From: Syntrophobacterales bacterium
GTDB lineage: Bacteria; Desulfobacterota; Desulfobaccia; Desulfobaccales; 0-14-0-80-60-11
DNA length: 58,371 bases
Reading direction: 5' to 3'
Assembly: GCA_020060385.1 (NCBI GenBank)
Contig: JAGVAH010000123.1
Span: 1 to 58,371, forward strand
Position numbers and translations under genes: made by a program. Positions 2,949 to 10,987 of this stretch are shown here, in pieces. Below the pieces are notes generated by a model, which did not search any database, was not told where the DNA came from, and saw only the letters and a program-made list of their open reading frames with translations. Position 1 is the first letter of the stretch, and each line of letters begins with the position of its first letter.

Positions 2949-3809
2949 TCAATGGTCGTATTTTTTGGCGTAGGCCGCGTCGTTGTATAGCCCCTCTCCG
3001 TAACGCTTTTTGCCGTAATCCTGGATGATCTTCTGCCCCTGGGGCGAAGCCAAGAAGTCGATGAACTTGGCGGCTATGGATGCGCCCCGGGTGGCCCCGG
3101 CGGGCTGGCACAGGGCATGGTAAGTATTAACCAACAGCTTGTCACCTTTGAAGAGAATCTTGAGATTGGGGACCCCCTTCTTCTCCGCCACCCAGGTGCT
3201 GCTGTCCACCATGAAATACCCCTTTTCCTTATTGGCCCTATTCAGGGTGGCGGTCATGAAATCCTTGGTGACCACGTACCAGTTCCCCTGGGGCTGGAGG
3301 TCCGCTTTTTTCCAAATGGACAACTCTTTCTTATGGGTGCCGGAATTATCCCCTCGGGAGAAAAACTTGGCCTTGGCCGCGGCGATCCGCTGGTAGGCAT
3401 CCGGGGCGTCCTTGGCCGCGGCGATTTTTGCGGGATCACTGGCCGGGCCGACGATGAAGAATTCATTGGACCCCAAGAGGGTGCGCTTGGAGGCCCAGCC
3501 GTCTTTTACCGCCTGTTTTTCCGCGGCCGGGGCGTGCACCATGATCATGTCCACCTTTTTATCCTTCAGGAGTTGCAGGGACTTGCCGGAGCCGGCCTTG
3601 TACCAGGCCATTTGGGCCTGGTTCTCTTTGCAGAAGGTTTCCGCCAGCACCTTTAACAGTCCCAGTTCCCCGGGGCTGCCGGTGGCCAAAGAAAACTTCT
3701 GCGCGCCGCTGCCGTAAACCGCGGTGGGCTTAGCGGCCGCACTGGCCGCTGCCCCCCACAGCAGGCAGGCCATGAGCGCCAGGACTCCCAATAGAGACTT
3801 CCTTCTCAT
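2949..3809 (-). CDS. Second TupA-like oxyanion-binding protein
   Basis: A 286-residue secreted protein with a signal peptide (MRRK, hydrophobic core, ASAAA cleavage near residue 25). It is paralogous to TupA: both share the SRGDxSGT-KEL-WK block and the VDMIMVHAP/ADVVMVHA segment. The ligand-binding motif differs, with ATGSPGELGLL replacing TTSTQNSGL, so it may bind another anion or bind with another affinity. The C-terminus is Lys/Tyr-rich. AGGAGG lies 5 nt before the ATG. It is the first gene after a ModE-like operator (3833-3856), so it probably leads the tup transcript. Alternative: a sulfate- or molybdate-type binding protein recruited to the locus. Confidence 0.75.
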   Translation of the reverse strand: MRRKSLLGVLALMACLLWGAAASAAAKPTAVYGSGAQKFSLATGSPGELGLLKVLAETFCKENQAQMAWYKAGSGKSLQLLKDKKVDMIMVHAPAAEKQAVKDGWASKRTLLGSNEFFIVGPASDPAKIAAAKDAPDAYQRIAAAKAKFFSRGDNSGTHKKELSIWKKADLQPQGNWYVVTKDFMTATLNRANKEKGYFMVDSSTWVAEKKGVPNLKILFKGDKLLVNTYHALCQPAGATRGASIAAKFIDFLASPQGQKIIQDYGKKRYGEGLYNDAAYAKKYDH

Positions 3810-3832: not shown

Positions 3833-3856
3833 CGGTATTTGTTTAATAGAATAGCG
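3833..3856. promoter_or_regulatory. ModE-like operator upstream of the tup genes
   Basis: A 24-bp imperfect palindrome of the form CGGTAT-N12-ATAGCG on the plus strand, beginning 24 bp upstream of the second tupA-like ATG. The half-sites and the 12-bp separation match the ModE operator pattern CGnTAT-N12-ATAnCG as I remember it from E. coli mod. A second copy lies upstream of fdhA at 10204-10227, and a ModE-type gene is in the same block. Its position near the start fits repression by ModE. Confidence 0.6.
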
Positions 3857-3918: not shown

Positions 3919-4662
3919 TCAGAGGGAGGGCGCGGGGATCAGGGAGGATAAAGAGACAGCCAGTTGTTCCGGGGCAAACTCTTGGGTGTCGGCCATAATT
4001 TGCCGCACCCGGCCATGGTCATAGACCACCAGGGTTTCCGCCAGGGCCGCCACGTCTTCGGGATCATGGGTGATGAGCATCACCGGGATGGTGAACCGCT
4101 CTTTGATCCTCAAGAGCTCCTGTCGCATCTTGGCCCGGAGGAGGGCGTCCAGGGCCGAGAAAGGTTCATCCAAAAGCAGCAGCTTCGGGCGGCGGATGAG
4201 GGCCCGGGCCAGGCCCACCCGCTGGCGTTGGCCCCCGGACAGGTCCCGGGGCAGGGAGTCCTGCACCCGGGTCAATTCAAAGATCTCCAGCACCTCCTCC
4301 AGGCGCAGGCGTTCCTGAAGGGGCAGACGCCAACTCCAGCCGTGTTTCAGGCCGAAGGAGATATTGCGGGCCACACTCAGGTGGGGGAAGAGGGCGTATT
4401 CCTGGAAGACGTAACCCACGTCCCGGCGGCGGGCCGGCACTCTGATGCGCCGGGAGGAATCAAAGAGAACCCGGTTCCCCACCACGATGCGCCCGGCATC
4501 CGGGGTGACCAGGCCGGCGATGGCCTGGAGGGTGAGGGTCTTGCCGGCCCCTGAAGGACCGAAGAGGACCACCACGTCCTTATCGGAGCTAAAGGCCGCT
4601 TCCAGGCCAAAGACCCGTTTCCCGGATCCCAGGCGTTTTTTAATATCCACGATAATCTTCAT
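3919..4662 (-). CDS. modC: Molybdate ABC transporter ATP-binding protein, TOBE-less
   Basis: A 247-residue ATPase. Walker A GPSGAGKT is at 35-42, a Q-loop in VFQEYALFPHL at about 85-95, LSGGQ at 141-145 and Walker B LLLLDE at 161-166, with the D-loop SALD following. These features and the ALFPHLSVARNI segment fit ModC. E. coli-type ModC has about 350 residues with a C-terminal molybdate-binding TOBE/Mop domain; that domain is absent here, and the reading frame ends cleanly with no sign of frameshift. It follows modA by 42 bp and completes modB-modA-modC. No obvious Shine-Dalgarno precedes the ATG. Confidence 0.88.
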   Translation of the reverse strand: MKIIVDIKKRLGSGKRVFGLEAAFSSDKDVVVLFGPSGAGKTLTLQAIAGLVTPDAGRIVVGNRVLFDSSRRIRVPARRRDVGYVFQEYALFPHLSVARNISFGLKHGWSWRLPLQERLRLEEVLEIFELTRVQDSLPRDLSGGQRQRVGLARALIRRPKLLLLDEPFSALDALLRAKMRQELLRIKERFTIPVMLITHDPEDVAALAETLVVYDHGRVRQIMADTQEFAPEQLAVSLSSLIPAPSL

Positions 4663-4704: not shown

Positions 4705-5466
4705 TTAGGCCGGGCCAAAGCCAAACTTTTTAAAGATCTTCTGAGCCCCGGGGCTCAAGACAAAATTGAGAAAATCCTGGGCCAGGGCCTCCTTGCCCGT
4801 GGAGGCGGTGACCGCGAGGAGATAGAGAATGGGGGAATGTTCGCTCACCGCCATGATAACCTTCACCTTGCCCAGGGCAACGGCCGCGTCGGTGGAATAG
4901 ACAAAGCCCGTGTCCACCTCCCCCCGGCGCACATAGTCCAGGACCTGGCGCACCGACTCGGCCATGATGTACTTGGGTGTCAGCTTCTCCCACAGACCCG
5001 CTTTCACCAAGGCCTCCTGGGAGTAACGCCCCGCGGGCACGGTGGCCGGGCTCCCCACCGCCACCCGTTTCACCTCCGCTTTGGTCAGGTCCTGGAGACT
5101 GGTAAGGGTCAGCTTAGAATCCATGGGCACGATGAGCACCAGGCGATTGGTGACAAAGTTCTTCCGGCTCCCGGGCCGGATCAGCTTTTTCTCCTGGGCC
5201 TGGTTCATGGTCTTTTGGTCCGCGGCGGCAAAGACGTCCACCGGCGCGCCCTTGGCCATCTGCTGCAATAAGACACCGGACGCGGCAAAATTACAGACGA
5301 TCTTGGCGCCGGGATGCGCTTTTTCGTATGCTGCGGCCACTTCCTTCATGGCGTTGGTGAGGCTGGCCGCGGCGGAGACAATGAGCTCCTGGGCGGCGAA
5401 GGCCGGCGTCCCCCCGAGAATCAGGGCCGCCAACCCCAGCAGGGCGCAGAATTTAGCTTTAGACAT
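4705..5466 (-). CDS. modA: Molybdate-binding periplasmic protein
   Basis: A 253-residue periplasmic molybdate receptor. A signal peptide ends near AFA. The mature start LIVSAAASLTNAMKEVA is the ModA signature, and further family segments are FAASGVLLQQMAKGAPVDVF and RGEVDTGFVYSTDA. The ATG at 5466 is preferred because AGGAGG lies 6 nt before it; a TTG two codons upstream would sit directly against that AGGAGG. It lies 18 bp after modB in the same transcript and hands molybdate (or tungstate) to ModB/ModC. Confidence 0.92.
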   Translation of the reverse strand: MSKAKFCALLGLAALILGGTPAFAAQELIVSAAASLTNAMKEVAAAYEKAHPGAKIVCNFAASGVLLQQMAKGAPVDVFAAADQKTMNQAQEKKLIRPGSRKNFVTNRLVLIVPMDSKLTLTSLQDLTKAEVKRVAVGSPATVPAGRYSQEALVKAGLWEKLTPKYIMAESVRQVLDYVRRGEVDTGFVYSTDAAVALGKVKVIMAVSEHSPILYLLAVTASTGKEALAQDFLNFVLSPGAQKIFKKFGFGPA

Positions 5467-5484
5467 AGCCAACCTCCTAAAAGT

Positions 5485-6156
5485 TCACAGGTACCTGATC
5501 TTAAAAATCTTGCCGGAGACCAGCAGGATGGTGAGACAGACCGCGGAGATGATCACCACCAGGACGGTGGCCGTCTGGTCATTGCCGGCCAGAAAGGCGT
5601 CATACACGGCGATGGACAGGGTTTGGGTCTTGCCGGGGAGATTACCCGCCACCATCAGGGTGGCCCCGAACTCCCCCATGGCCCGGGCGAAGGCCATCAT
5701 CGCCCCGGCCCAAATCCCCCCCCAGGCCAGGGGCAGGGACACCCGCAGAAAGACCCCCAGTTCCGAGAGGCCCAGGGTGCGGGCGGCGTTTTCCAGGTTG
5801 GGGTCCACCCCTTCGAACGCGGCCCGGGCCGACTTGTAGATCAGGGGCAAAGAGACCACGGCCGCGGCCAGGGCCGCACCCTGCCAGGTAAAGATCAGGG
5901 AGATGCCCCAGGTCTCCTGGAGCCAGCGGCCCAACCAGCCGTGCCGGCCGATCAAGACGATGAGGTAATAACCCAGGACCGTGGGGGGCATGACCAGGGG
6001 CAGGGTGCAGATGGAGTCCAGGCCCTCCCGGCCCCAGAAACGGCTGCGGGCCACCAGGAAGGCCAGGACCACCCCCACCAGAAAGCTCAGCAGGGTGGCC
6101 ACCCCGGCCACCTTCAAGGTCAGCCAGAGGGGAGTCAGATTAAGGGGGATAGTCAT
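5485..6156 (-). CDS. modB: Molybdate ABC transporter permease
   Basis: A 223-residue inner-membrane permease with about five hydrophobic segments. Typical ModB segments are LPLVMPPTVLGYYLIVLIG (about residues 53-71), the EAA loop with AARTLGLSELGVFLRVSLPL, and RAMGEFGATLMVAGNLPGKTQTL. It is the first gene of modB-modA-modC, an order unlike the common modABC. AGGAGG lies 7 nt before the ATG. A sigma-54-type promoter element at 6196-6210 would place the transcript start roughly 25-30 nt upstream of the ATG. Confidence 0.92.
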   Translation of the reverse strand: MTIPLNLTPLWLTLKVAGVATLLSFLVGVVLAFLVARSRFWGREGLDSICTLPLVMPPTVLGYYLIVLIGRHGWLGRWLQETWGISLIFTWQGAALAAAVVSLPLIYKSARAAFEGVDPNLENAARTLGLSELGVFLRVSLPLAWGGIWAGAMMAFARAMGEFGATLMVAGNLPGKTQTLSIAVYDAFLAGNDQTATVLVVIISAVCLTILLVSGKIFKIRYL

Positions 6157-6195
6157 GGTGGCACCTCCTATGCCCCTACAGATAATTTATTAAAA

Positions 6196-6210
6196 GCAAG
6201 TTTCCTGCCA
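6196..6210 (-). promoter_or_regulatory. Sigma-54-type -24/-12 promoter of modBAC
   Basis: On the minus strand the sequence TGGCAGG-AAAC-TTGC followed by T matches the RpoN consensus TGGCACG-N4-TTGCW with one base changed and exact GG/GC spacing. The GC of the -12 element is 41 nt from the modB ATG, giving a short leader that contains the AGGAGG. It lies in an AT-rich 280-bp gap with room for an upstream activator site, for which a palindrome at 6296-6311 is a candidate. Confidence 0.6.
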
Positions 6211-6295
6211 TGAAGGGGCATAATAGTTAACTAATATAATTTAATAGATAATTTGGGCTGTCAGGATAATGCTGGGAGTTTACCTTGATAATTTT

Positions 6296-6311
6296 ATTAC
6301 ATTATTGTAAT
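6296..6311. promoter_or_regulatory. Palindrome, possible activator site
   Basis: ATTACA-TTAT-TGTAAT is a perfect 6-bp inverted repeat with a 4-bp centre. It lies about 110 bp upstream of the predicted sigma-54 start of modBAC, the usual distance for an enhancer-binding-protein site. No regulator can be assigned from sequence. AT-rich palindromes also arise by chance. Confidence 0.35.
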
Positions 6312-6437
6312 CTATATAAACTGGTCGCGATAAGTTTTTGTTCATTTATGTACATTATTAGAAGAAGTAATCCTCGGGGCTCTGTCCTCTTCCCCTAGCC
6401 CTGGTTCAAATGATAAGGAGGATTCCGTTTCCTGGGC

Positions 6438-8075
6438 TCATTTCCCGAAGGGGCATTTCTGGGGAAAGGTGCAAGACTTGCAATTGAGGCAAAAAGCGCC
6501 GTGACCCATCCGGGCCAGATCGTGGCGGTTAATTTCCAGTCCAGCCAGGAGGCGGGGCAGCAGCAGATCAAAACTGGTGGTCTTGAAATAGAGGGCGCAG
6601 GCCGGCACCCCCATGACCTGCACCGGGCCGATCCGGGCCAGCAGGGTCATGGCCCCGGGAATAATGGGGGCGCCGTAGACCAGATCGCTGGCCCCCGCGT
6701 CCACCAATCCCTGGCGGGTGACGTCATCCGGGTCCACGGAGAGCCCCGCGGTGGTCACCAGGAGATCGACGCCGCTATCCAGGATTTCCTTTACCCCCTC
6801 GCCAATGGCCCGGCGGTCATCCGGCACGATCAGGGATTTGACCACCTGGCCCCCGAATTTTTCCACCTTGGTGGTGATAATGGGAACAAACCTGTCTTCC
6901 ACCAGGCCCATGAAGACTTCCGTGCCGGTGACCAGGATGCCCACCCGGGGGGCGCGCATCTCCAACACCCTAAAGATCGGCCCCTCCCTTAACACGGCCA
7001 GGGCCTTTTCCAGGTGCGCCCGGGGCAGGTACAAGGGGATGGCCCGGGTGGCCCCCAGCATCCGGTGGTGGGAGACTACAGTAAAAGTCTGGCGACAGGC
7101 GCAAACGACCCCGGGCACCAGGTTGAAGACCTCCAGGCGGGCCTCGTCCACCACCAGGAGACCATCTTTGGCCGCCAGGAAATTGACCTTGCCTTCCCGG
7201 GGAGGCTCGGTAAAAGTCACCCCTGCCCCGGCCATGACCCGGCCGAAGGCCAGGGCGGCTTCATCTTCGTGGACCCACTCCGAACCCACCCGGTTGTCCT
7301 CCTGGACATAGATATGCTGCCGTCCCATCTGCTGCAGGCGGCAGAGGTCCCCCACGCCGATCACCTGGCCCTTCTCGAAGGCCGGGGCCTTGCTGACCCC
7401 GGGATTGATCATGGTCATGTCGTGCAAGGTCCGGCGGCCCACGGTTTCCGTCAAGGGCAAGCATTCTAGGGCCGGCCCTTCCACCCCGGTGGCCTCGGCC
7501 TGGTCGGCCGCGAGATAGGGGGCGTCCCCCTGGCAGCCCCGGCAGATGCCGCCGTCCTGGGCCGGATAGGCCTCCTGGCACAGGGGGCAGATGACCATCC
7601 GGCCCCGGCCGCGCCTCTGGAGAAACTGGGGACGCACCTTGATCTGGCGCCATCCCAAGATCTCCGGCCCCGCCGCCTTGATCTGTTCCAGGAGCAGGTC
7701 GGAGTCCTGCTCCTTTTTGGGTCGCAGTTTGAGATACCAGGCTTCTATCTCCGGCCAGCGGGACACTTCTGCGGGGTCAAGGAAGACCCGCACCCCTGCC
7801 CCCGTGTATTTGTCATAAAGGCTGAGCGCGAAACGGTCCAGATTCACTACTTTCAGCCAGCCGTTGCCGGTGGTGCAGGGGGTCAGGAGCTGCACCGCGT
7901 CCGGGAGGCAATTCCGGGTCTCCGCCAAGGCGTCGAAGAGGATGTCCGGGGGGAGATGCCGCCGGGCCAGATCCACCATGACCCCGCCGATCACCACCCC
8001 CGGGGCCAGATAGCCGTGGAAGGATTGCACCGCTGCCAAAAATTCATCGTAAGTGTAAGGTCCGATTGTCTTCAT
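6438..8075 (-). CDS. FmdE-domain / molybdopterin-binding (MoeA/MogA-like) fusion protein
   Basis: A 545-residue protein with three parts. Residues about 5-150 resemble FmdE (SFHGYLAPGVVIGG, then TPCTTGNGWLKV), a domain first linked to formylmethanofuran dehydrogenase operons. A small zinc-ribbon-like stretch with CPLCQ and CRGC follows at about 160-180. The C-terminal half holds a MoCF/MPT-binding domain (VGILVTGTEVFMG, then LVTTAGLSVDPDDVT). The tail has five closely spaced cysteines (CLNCKSC, KCPFGK). The ATG at 8075 has GGTGAT just upstream; a GTG at 8120 is less likely. It sits 80 bp downstream of fdhA on the same strand. A role in Mo/W-cofactor insertion into FdhA is inferred. Confidence 0.75.
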   Translation of the reverse strand: MKTIGPYTYDEFLAAVQSFHGYLAPGVVIGGVMVDLARRHLPPDILFDALAETRNCLPDAVQLLTPCTTGNGWLKVVNLDRFALSLYDKYTGAGVRVFLDPAEVSRWPEIEAWYLKLRPKKEQDSDLLLEQIKAAGPEILGWRQIKVRPQFLQRRGRGRMVICPLCQEAYPAQDGGICRGCQGDAPYLAADQAEATGVEGPALECLPLTETVGRRTLHDMTMINPGVSKAPAFEKGQVIGVGDLCRLQQMGRQHIYVQEDNRVGSEWVHEDEAALAFGRVMAGAGVTFTEPPREGKVNFLAAKDGLLVVDEARLEVFNLVPGVVCACRQTFTVVSHHRMLGATRAIPLYLPRAHLEKALAVLREGPIFRVLEMRAPRVGILVTGTEVFMGLVEDRFVPIITTKVEKFGGQVVKSLIVPDDRRAIGEGVKEILDSGVDLLVTTAGLSVDPDDVTRQGLVDAGASDLVYGAPIIPGAMTLLARIGPVQVMGVPACALYFKTTSFDLLLPRLLAGLEINRHDLARMGHGAFCLNCKSCTFPQKCPFGK

Positions 8076-8155
8076 TAGATCACCACGGATTGCCGGGGGC
8101 TGAGAAAGGAGCACCCCCACCCAGGGGGAGAAGCGGGTGGGGGTGGCAGGGGGGG

Positions 8156-10189
8156 TTATGCCGATTTGGCCAAGTTAACCGCACAGACTTTATATTCCGG
8201 GGTTTTGGTCACCGGGTCCAGGGCCGCGTTGGTCAGCCGGTTGGCGGCGTTCTCCGCGTAATGCAGGGGGATGAAGACCACTCCCGGCCTGACCTTGGTG
8301 GTTACCAGTGCTCGGGCCTTGATGGTGCCCCGGCGGCTGGTGGCCTGAATTTCTTCTCCCGCTTCGATATGCAGGCGCTGGGCGTCCTCAGGATTGATTT
8401 CCACCTCCACCACCGGGTTTTCATGGTGGAGGGTGGGACAGCGCCGGGTCATGGTGCCGGTGAGATAATGGGTGAAGAGGGTGCCGGTGGTCAGCCAGAA
8501 CGGATAGTCTTTATCCGGGGCCTCCGCGGGCGGCCGGTAATCAATGGCGTTGAACATGCCCAGGCCCCGGGAGAACCTGCCTTGGTGCAGGTATTGCGTG
8601 CCCGGGTGATCCGCAGTGGGGCAGGGCCAACAGAGCCCCTTCTCATTGAGGCGGGCGAAACTCATGCCCCCGAAGGCCGGGGTCAGGGAGGCCATTTCGT
8701 TGAAGATGTCCTCTCCGCAAGTATATTTCAGGGGATAGCCCATGCGGGTGGACAGTTCCTGGAGGGTCTCCCAGTTGGCTTTCCCGGGAATGGGGGGGAT
8801 GGCCGGACGCACCCGCTGCACCCGGCGTTCGGAGCTGGAGTAGGTGCCGTCCGACTCCGCGAAGGAACACGCGGGCAGCACCACGTGGGCAAAGGCCGAA
8901 GTGGGGGTGGGAAAGATGTCCATGACCAGCAGGAACTCCAGGGCCTGCATGGCCTTTTCCACCCGGTTGACATCGGGGTAGCTGGTTACCGGGTTGGCGC
9001 CAAAGACCACCAGCCCCTTGAACTTCCCGTCCAGGATGGCGTCGATCTGCTCCACCATGGTGAGGCCGGGAGTGGGGGACAACTTGGCGTTCCAGGCCTT
9101 GGCGAACTTCTCCAGGTTCTCCGGCACCGTAATATACTGGTAGCCCGGCAGGACGTTGGGCAGGCAGCCCATATCACAGGCACCCTGGACGTTGTTCTGG
9201 CCCCGGATGGGGTTCACCCCGGTGGAGGGCCGGCCGATCTGGCCGCAGAGCATGGACAGGTTGGCCAGGCTCTTGACGTTGTCCGTACCGGTGGAATGCT
9301 GGGTGATGCCCAGGACGTAACAGATGGCGCTGGACTCGGAGCGGCTGTACCATTCCGCGGCCTGCTTAAGCTGGTCCACCGGCACCCCGGTGATCTCCGA
9401 GGTGCGCTCCGGCGGGAATTGTTCGATGACCTCCGCCAGGGCCGGGAAGTTTTCCGTCCGCTCCTCGATAAAGGCCTGGTTGTGCCAGCCGTTTTTGTAG
9501 ATGATGTGCATGAGTCCGTTGATCAGGGCCACGTCGGTCCCCAGGCGGTGCTGGATATGCAGATGGGCCAGGGACGCGATCTGGGTCCTCCGGGGATCGG
9601 CCACAATCAGCTTGGCGCCGTTGGACTTGGCCCGCATCAGGCGCATGGAGCCGATGGGGTGGGCCACGGTGGTATTGGTGCCGATGGCCAAGATGCAATT
9701 GGCGCTTTCCAACTCCTTGAAGGAGTTGGTCATCGCCCCACTGCCAAATGCGGCGGCCAGCCCGGCCACCGTAGGCGCGTGTCAGAGACGGGCGCAGTGA
9801 TCGACGTGGTTGTGGCCGAACACTGCCCGGGCAAATTTTTGAAAGACATAGGTCTCTTCGTTGGTGCACCGGGCTGAGCCCACGAAGGCGACGCTTTCCG
9901 GCCCATAAGTATCCTTCAGCCGGGTCAGCTCGGAGGCGGCATGATCCAGGGCTTGATCCCAGGTAACCGCCTTTAAGGAATCGTTTTGGCGCAGGGACGG
10001 GGTGGTCAGGCGGTCCTGATGCTGCACAAATTCATGGACGTTCCAGCCTTTGATGCAGAGACTGCCTTCATTTGACGGTCCGGTTTTCGCGGGCAGGGTG
10101 CTGACGATCTGATCGTCCAACACCTGTAAAAGCATGTTGCACCCCACCGCGCAGTAGGGACAGGTGGTGAGAACCGAGCGAAACTCCAT
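8156..10189 (-). CDS. fdhA: Formate dehydrogenase catalytic subunit, selenoprotein (UGA at codon 136)
   Basis: This should oxidise formate to CO2 (or reduce CO2) at a Mo- or W-bis-pterin site in the cytoplasm; no Tat signal is seen. A [4Fe-4S] site is formed by Cys10, Cys13, Cys17 and Cys45. At codon 136 (9784-9782) an in-frame TGA occurs in the context HCARL-U-HAPTVAGL, exactly where FdhH-type enzymes carry selenocysteine, and the frame continues for 541 more codons to a C-terminal molydopterin-binding domain. With Sec the protein has 677 residues, close to E. coli FdhF. The ATG at 10189 has GGGAGG 5 nt upstream. A conventional gene caller would split it into two genes. No FdhB-type partner is adjacent; the ferredoxin at 22108 is one candidate partner. 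Confidence 0.92.
9751..9784 (-). promoter_or_regulatory. SECIS element of fdhA with selenocysteine UGA
   Basis: Directly after the TGA (9784-9782) the mRNA can form an 8-bp stem CGGTGGCC/GGCCGCCG (9771-9764 with 9758-9751) closed by the loop GGGCU. Measured from the UGA, the loop falls at the same distance as the GGUCU of the E. coli fdhF SECIS recalled from memory. This placement within the coding region is the bacterial arrangement recognised by SelB. Confidence 0.75.
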
Positions 10190-10253: not shown

Positions 10254-10637
10254 TCAGAATTTTTGGTCTGTGAGCCATTCTTGAAACTTATCCGCCATCT
10301 GCCAAAAATCGGCCACTATGGCTTCTCCCGCGGGAGTGAGCCAGGCGCGGCCGCCGCTCTTGCCCCCGAAAATGCGGGCCACCAGGTCTTCCCCGGCTAA
10401 ACGGTTCATGTCCGCCACCATGGACCAGGCATGGCTGTAAGCCATGTTCATGGACCGGGCCGCGGCGGCGATGGACCCCAGGTCGCGGATGCGCTCCAGG
10501 AGCACCACCCGCCCCCAACTCAAGAAAGTCTCACCATCCTTTTCCAGCCAGAGGCGGCCTTTGATTTGCACCCCGGCAGCCGCTGAACTGGAAGCCAGGG
10601 CCGTGCCCCGGCCATGATCCTTTTTCTTGATGGCCAT
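10254..10637 (-). CDS. modE: ModE-family transcriptional regulator, DNA-binding domain only
   Basis: A 127-residue regulator carrying only the N-terminal winged-helix of ModE: RVVLLERIRDLGSIAAAARSMNMAYSHAWSMV is the diagnostic helix-turn-helix, and GGKSGGRAWLTPAG the wing. E. coli ModE has about 260 residues with two C-terminal TOBE domains that bind molybdate; these are absent. Oxyanion sensing must be indirect, lost, or done by a separate Mop protein. The ATG at 10637 fits the domain; an in-frame TTG at 10736 would add a long Lys- and Ile/Leu-rich head. It is the first gene of the block and lies next to its likely operator at 10204-10227. Confidence 0.82.
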   Translation of the reverse strand: MAIKKKDHGRGTALASSSAAAGVQIKGRLWLEKDGETFLSWGRVVLLERIRDLGSIAAAARSMNMAYSHAWSMVADMNRLAGEDLVARIFGGKSGGRAWLTPAGEAIVADFWQMADKFQEWLTDQKF

Positions 10638-10987
10638 GCGATATTCTAAAAAAAAAATAGCAGAATTCAAAATCAAACTCAAGTATTTTCCCGTGGGCAG
10701 GGCCATAAGGCAAATAAATTTTTTCTTTTTTCCCAATTTAGCCGAAATAAATAGTTACATGCTGATGAGGGTGAGGGGAATATTCTCTGGGACAAGAGAA
10801 ATATTCTCTTTGATTTCAGTGGAATTTTATAATAAAAATAGAGTTTAAGCGTCTAACTAGTAAAGACGGACCCAACCCGGGAATTTAGTGGGGGGAGAAG
10901 TGAGGCAAATTCCCGGTGCGGCAGTGAACGTCGTTTGTCATCTCTGCCTTCTCTCTTCTCCCCCGTGTTGAGATTAAGGGAATTATT
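10638..10987. other. AT-rich divergent spacer between modE and the RND exporter
   Basis: No gene is seen. The part 10640-10860 is markedly AT-rich and should hold promoters for modE (leftward) and hpnN (rightward); a TATAAT occurs at 10828-10833 without a good -35 partner. A perfect 10-bp inverted repeat GGGGGAGAAG/CTTCTCCCCC joins 10891-10900 to 10955-10964. Confidence 0.5.

Follow-up and report, generated by a model that had tools for sequence, protein, structure and literature searches.

Transcription of the molybdate transport operon modBAC in a Syntrophobacterales bacterium (order Desulfobaccales) is probably governed by nitrogen limitation, through a sigma-54 promoter and an activator bound to dyads farther upstream, in concert with nif and ammonium-assimilation genes. 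The initial annotation of this locus had proposed a sigma-54-type promoter with an enhancer-type palindrome and had not named the signal; our analysis supports the first part and sharpens the second, the different signal being most likely nitrogen status. The operon and its control region lie in a contig of 58,371 nucleotides, hereafter the window, which was analysed over its whole length and contains the following features:

5485-6156, minus strand: modB, molybdate ABC permease, first gene of modB-modA-modC (TIGR02141, 231.8 bits against a cut-off of 182.6)
4705-5472, minus strand: modA, molybdate-binding protein (TIGR01256, 207.6 bits against a cut-off of 62.5)
3919-4662, minus strand: modC-like ATPase of 247 amino acids, with ABC_tran as the sole transporter domain matched in Pfam
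6157-6184, minus strand: predicted 28-nt leader, with a ribosome-binding site AGGAGG at 6169-6164
6195-6210, minus strand: -24/-12 element TGGCAGG-AAAC-TTGCT, reading TGGCAGGAAACTTGCT and kept in relatives
6296-6311, minus strand: proximal putative activator site ATTACAATAATGTAAT, a 16-bp palindrome containing a TAC-N6-GTA dyad (score 18.8)
6339-6354, minus strand: distal, weaker putative activator site TGTACATAAATGAACA (score 7.3), 43 bp from the proximal one

The modC-like ATPase remains below the cut-off of its best family, TIGR02142 (211.6 versus 285.05 bits), because its C-terminal part is absent: the alignment spans positions 1-215 of 353, and no C-terminal TOBE/MOP regulatory domain is matched in Pfam. 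Immediately upstream of modB, positions 6438-8120 (minus strand) encode a fusion of an FmdE domain, a treble-clef zinc finger and a MoCF_biosynth (MoeA-like) domain, which is found in relatives too. Two TupA-like binding proteins, encoded side by side at 2066-2884 and 2949-3809 (minus strand), adjoin modBAC and both score under the TupA cut-off (255.4 and 142.9 of 400 bits). An Rfam scan of the window returned zero matches, which leaves no sign of a known Moco or tungsten riboswitch.

The -24/-12 element begins 54 bp upstream of the modB start codon, an ATG at 6156 on the minus strand. The sequence TGGCAGGAAACTTGCT (6210-6195) shows no mismatch to TGGCANGNNNNTTGCW, of which it is the sole perfect match in the window; it retains the GG-N10-GC spacing noted in the initial annotation and is close to TGGCAYR-N4-TTGCW, with G instead of Y as the sixth base. 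Sites with up to two mismatches to the sigma-54 consensus are not above chance in the window (26 found, 36 expected), and the score of the modB element was reached in 1 of 1000 dinucleotide-preserving shuffles of its leader. One RpoN is encoded per genome. The location of the -12 GC would put the transcription start of modB near 6184, which defines the predicted leader. We consider it very likely that 6210-6195 is a sigma-54 promoter of modBAC. We rejected as a core part of this promoter a 12-nt inverted repeat around the element (6169-6180/6211-6222, TATGCCCCTACA/TGAAGGGGCATA, 92% complementary), because no such repeat is seen in the leaders of relatives and because a transcript from this promoter would not include its upstream arm.

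The palindrome that had been noted about 110 bp upstream corresponds to ATTACAATAATGTAAT (6311-6296), 101 bp upstream of the -24/-12 element. Under a matrix trained on nifH and amtB sites only, these training sites being themselves picked by the TAC-N6-GTA pattern, its score is equalled by none of 1000 dinucleotide-preserving leader shuffles, and no other site in the 58-kb window reaches a score of 10. The motif also emerges when it is not preset. When every palindromic trinucleotide dyad with a spacer of 0 to 16 is enumerated, GCA-N7-TGC (the sigma-54 core) and TAC-N6-GTA rank first and second in five mod leaders, and both are within the top three in ten nifH/amtB leaders. The putative operator matches the form of the published AnfA operator: in Rhodobacter capsulatus, two TAC-N6-GTA AnfA sites precede the anfH promoter (PMC7294313). 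The classical NifA operator, TGT-N10-ACA, has one fit in the window (TGTACATAAATGAACA) and is absent from the other four mod leaders and from four nifH leaders; as these sites are not conserved, we rejected this reading.

Orthologues of modB were sought in 59 relatives. Four further intact genes of the same family were recovered (93, 83, 74 and 74% identical), with the same FmdE/MoeA-like gene upstream. Loss of the element in close relatives had been named as an argument against the promoter; GG-N10-GC is kept in all five mod leaders, if weakly in one of them (G003), 54-63 bp upstream of the start codon and between diverging flanks. The elements of the four relatives, 57-63 bp before the start codon, read:

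G003: CGGTATAAAACTTGCC
G016: GGGCATGGAACTTGCC
G001: TGGCACAATATATGCT
G006: TGGCATACATTATGCT

In each of these four leaders, TAC-N6-G(T/A)A dyads also occur as a pair, 90-160 bp ahead of the -24/-12 element. Taken as an AnfA-type operator, the dyad is present as strict TAC-N6-GTA in four of the five mod leaders and as TAC-N6-GAA in the fifth, and is paired in all five; the dyads of G003, G016 and G006 lie 42 bp apart. Neighbouring dyads are preferentially 21, 30-32, 42-43 or 50-51 bp from each other, in helical phase (resultant of 0.89 at 10.5 bp; for six representatives, 27 of 20000 random sets were equally good). The weakest leader on both element and dyads is that of G003, with CGGTA at -24 and GAA half-sites: shuffles are as good in 62/1000 cases for the element and 28/1000 for the dyad, so that this leader is unconvincing on its own. 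Orthologous leader sites are not independent of one another. In distant mod operons, mostly with modA ahead of modB and including those of G024 and G041, no sigma-54-plus-dyad composite was found within 1.5 kb, and the arrangement is therefore limited to the locus of the window's modB family.

Three other loci deserve mention. On a contig labelled Halodesulfovibrio (L039), a strong sigma-54 match, TGGCACCTTCCTTGCT (8913-8928), lies 88 bp upstream of a modB whose leader contains no TAC-N6-GTA dyad; sigma-54 control may perhaps operate there through another activator. Locus L034 presents a sigma-54 match weaker than that of L039, and no dyad. Finally, a modB remnant (L028, G007:C1:21724-21973) consists of two short matches on opposite strands, without a regulatory leader, and is apparently a broken, rearranged copy.

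The conservation of this control region bears on a rival explanation, by which most modBAC transcription would come from a sigma-70 promoter or from read-through of the FmdE/MoeA-like gene, with the -24/-12 element a coincidence. Two sigma-70-like matches lie on the minus strand of the AT-rich leader, the gene upstream points the same way, and no terminator was found. However, both element and dyads are conserved across five species despite divergent flanks, and their combination is rare in the genome. We thus hold this explanation to be improbable.

The same combination marks nitrogen genes. A first whole-genome pattern search matched the mod leaders plus, in G003, a tandem dyad pair upstream of nifH. 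In four genomes out of four, the nifH leader has a TGGCA-type sigma-54 element at about -55, accompanied by upstream dyads in three; that of G001 has no strong dyad. Strong sigma-54 elements and dyads, mostly 30-32 bp apart, are present in the amtB leaders of G000, G003, G007, G016 and G024. In all, the composite is common to amtB, glnB, glnA, a glutamate-synthase-like gene and nifH in these genomes.

Its rarity was assessed at several scales. With the nifH/amtB-trained matrix, the modB leader of the window has a composite score of 32.8; of 217 control leaders, taken from about 0.44 Mb of the window's own genome, none exceeds 21.7. The best-scoring controls are the leaders of P-II, FlgF, GlnA and the glutamate-synthase-like protein; that of FlgF is the lone control in which a strong sigma-54 site stands without a dyad, a state expected of flagellar genes. 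A composite scan of 629 kb, partly enriched in nitrogen genes since nifA, glnA and amtB neighbourhoods were chosen for inclusion, returned 15 matches, all but one of them (14/15) before amtB, glnB, the glutamate-synthase-like gene, glnA, nifH or modB. Whole-genome searches with the strict dyad pattern are free of this neighbourhood-choice bias: they identify three places in the 4.15-Mb genome of the window (amtB, modB and one without a matching gene) and 16 places in nine genomes, of which 12 precede amtB, glnA or the glutamate-synthase-like gene, 1 precedes modB and 3 are unassigned. Our genome-wide statements are based on searches for exact patterns and on sampled sequence stretches.

The nif cluster is ordered nifH-I1-I2-D-K-E, and nifD, nifK and nifE score above Mo-nitrogenase cut-offs, so that molybdate uptake has an obvious purpose. 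Because the same composite marks nifH, amtB, glnB, glnA and the glutamate-synthase-like gene, the signal acting on modBAC is most likely nitrogen limitation, and it appears highly likely from these shared motifs that the operon belongs to a common nitrogen-limitation regulon.

This distribution also weighs on a third possibility, namely that the palindromes are operators of a ModE/TunR-like protein exerting Mo- or W-responsive control. Such a protein is encoded 4 kb away (10254-10736, minus strand), just upstream of formate dehydrogenase genes: it is a ModE-type winged-helix protein with the N-terminal domain and without molybdate-binding domains, reminiscent of TunR, and obtains 70.2 bits with TIGR00637, below the cut-off of 98.5. 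As previously annotated, however, the modB leader (6157-6437) contains no ModE-like box, the only match with three mismatches in the window being located near tup, at 3833-3856. Moreover, the dyad precedes amtB, glnA and nifH and not tup or the fdh region. We consider Mo- or W-responsive control through these palindromes very improbable. The suggestion that modBAC follows a signal separate from that of tup and fdhA is in turn reinforced, by the relatives as well as by the genome scans.

A search for an RpoN activator gene near mod loci had also been suggested. None was found within the window, and the best candidate sits on another contig. Full-length sigma-54 activators number 27 in the window's genome; 26 of them (L061 was left out) were screened against NCBIfam. 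None reached the ntrC cut-off, and one exceeded the curated NifA cut-off (TIGR01817, 536.3 versus 528.85 bits):

G000:C25:9461-11029: NifA-family candidate activator, with GAF, AAA+ and Fis-type HTH domains

The candidate gene shares its contig with glnA and the glutamate-synthase-like gene, and several genomes show linkage of nifA to glnA/amtB. Near-complete orthologues in relatives are 71-94% identical. The best NifA-profile stretch of the candidate ends at position 438 of 534, short of the HTH. A homologue in Desulfovibrio strain DP4 is 45% identical, and the nifH promoter of that strain, TGGCACATCCCTTGCC, has a TAC-N6-GTA dyad, GCTACAAAAATGTAGC, 113 bp upstream. The HTH sequences of the candidate and of the DP4 homologue nevertheless differ, and with this reservation we regard the NifA-family protein as a fairly likely activator of the modBAC promoter.

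The main rival to this assignment retains both the sigma-54 promoter and the nitrogen regulon and calls on a different member of the 27 activators, for instance an NtrC-like response regulator. Besides the sheer number of activators, it can invoke the HTH of the candidate, which falls outside the matched NifA profile, and the targets themselves: glnA, gltB and amtB are classically under NtrC, and the text of PMC2725144 describes RpoN dependence of glnA, gltB and nif genes in Geobacter without naming a NifA. On the other hand, the NCBIfam screen singled out one protein at the nifA cut-off and none at that of ntrC, the nifA linkage joins this gene to its presumed targets glnA and amtB, and the operator has the AnfA form. 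A different activator is accordingly a possibility we deem unlikely.

NifA-type control of molybdate uptake is already known as a principle. Bradyrhizobium, Rhizobium sp. NGR234 and Gluconacetobacter provide documented or predicted cases for modABC (PMC4999443); in Bradyrhizobium DOA9, modABC is lowered in an rpoN mutant and a -24/-12 element is predicted before modA (PMC13207237). The present system resembles these alphaproteobacterial cases in placing a molybdate transporter under sigma-54 and a (here presumed) NifA-family activator alongside nitrogenase. It differs from them in phylum, in operator (TAC-N6-GTA, whereas NifA sites there are TGT-N10-ACA) and in the sharing of this operator with ammonium-assimilation genes. 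With the AnfA/anfHDGK system of R. capsulatus (PMC7294313), the only report containing the TAC-N6-GTA string among the open-access literature searched, it has in common paired dyads upstream of a -24/-12 promoter; AnfA, however, governs an Fe-only nitrogenase, whereas here nifD/K/E belong to the Mo type and modBAC, amtB and glnA are among the targets. Among sulfate reducers, DVUA0143 of Desulfovibrio vulgaris, with an AnfA/VnfA-like N-terminus, is the predicted activator of the nif operon (PMC4641369). It is likewise a one-component GAF activator, of which we infer the DP4 protein to be the orthologue, but its predicted regulon comprises no more than the nif operon and DVUA0016 and includes no mod genes. 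Lastly, ModE-repressed modABC of the E. coli type serves the same transport function; for modBAC here, neither a ModE box nor a full-length ModE was found. What we have not found described in the open-access literature is the occurrence of such control in Desulfobacterota, via an AnfA-type operator common to glnA, the glutamate-synthase-like gene, glnB-amtB and Mo-nitrogenase.

In the mechanism we propose, RNA polymerase with RpoN would be bound at 6210-6195 and held until activated. An AAA+ enhancer-binding protein, most likely the NifA-family candidate, would occupy the dyads at 6296-6311 and 6339-6354 and open the modB promoter. Scarcity of fixed nitrogen would then induce molybdate uptake jointly with Mo-nitrogenase and ammonium assimilation. 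Nitrogen-fixation control over molybdate transport, known from alphaproteobacteria, would probably occur, via a different operator, also in a phylum that comprises sulfate reducers and related bacteria. There is perhaps an even chance that, in Desulfobaccales, a single NifA-family one-component activator with an AnfA-type operator acts as a general nitrogen regulator, covering the job of NtrC (glnA, glutamate synthase, glnB and amtB) and that of NifA (nif) as well as molybdate uptake; metal supply would then be anticipated from nitrogen status, not sensed via ModE. Members of this order are mostly uncultured, and the strains carrying this modB leader have no cultured representative. The paired, helically phased TAC-N6-GTA operator and its associated regulon (nif, glnA, the glutamate-synthase-like gene, glnB-amtB and mod) could be used to predict nitrogen regulation across Desulfobaccales, and a cultured relative, Desulfobacca acetoxidans, could serve for the amtB and glnA part.

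Two dyad locations stand somewhat apart. At L098 (G000:C119:9644-9657), a perfect dyad, ATTACAATATTGTATT, has no recognised nitrogen gene alongside and is possibly a further regulon member or a chance occurrence. In G024, strict dyads at C1:1203308 and C1:1203675 (L177/L180) lie between glnA, which is preceded by TGGCACAGGTGTTGCT, and a divergent gene encoding a protein similar to CarA, the carbamoyl-phosphate synthase small subunit.
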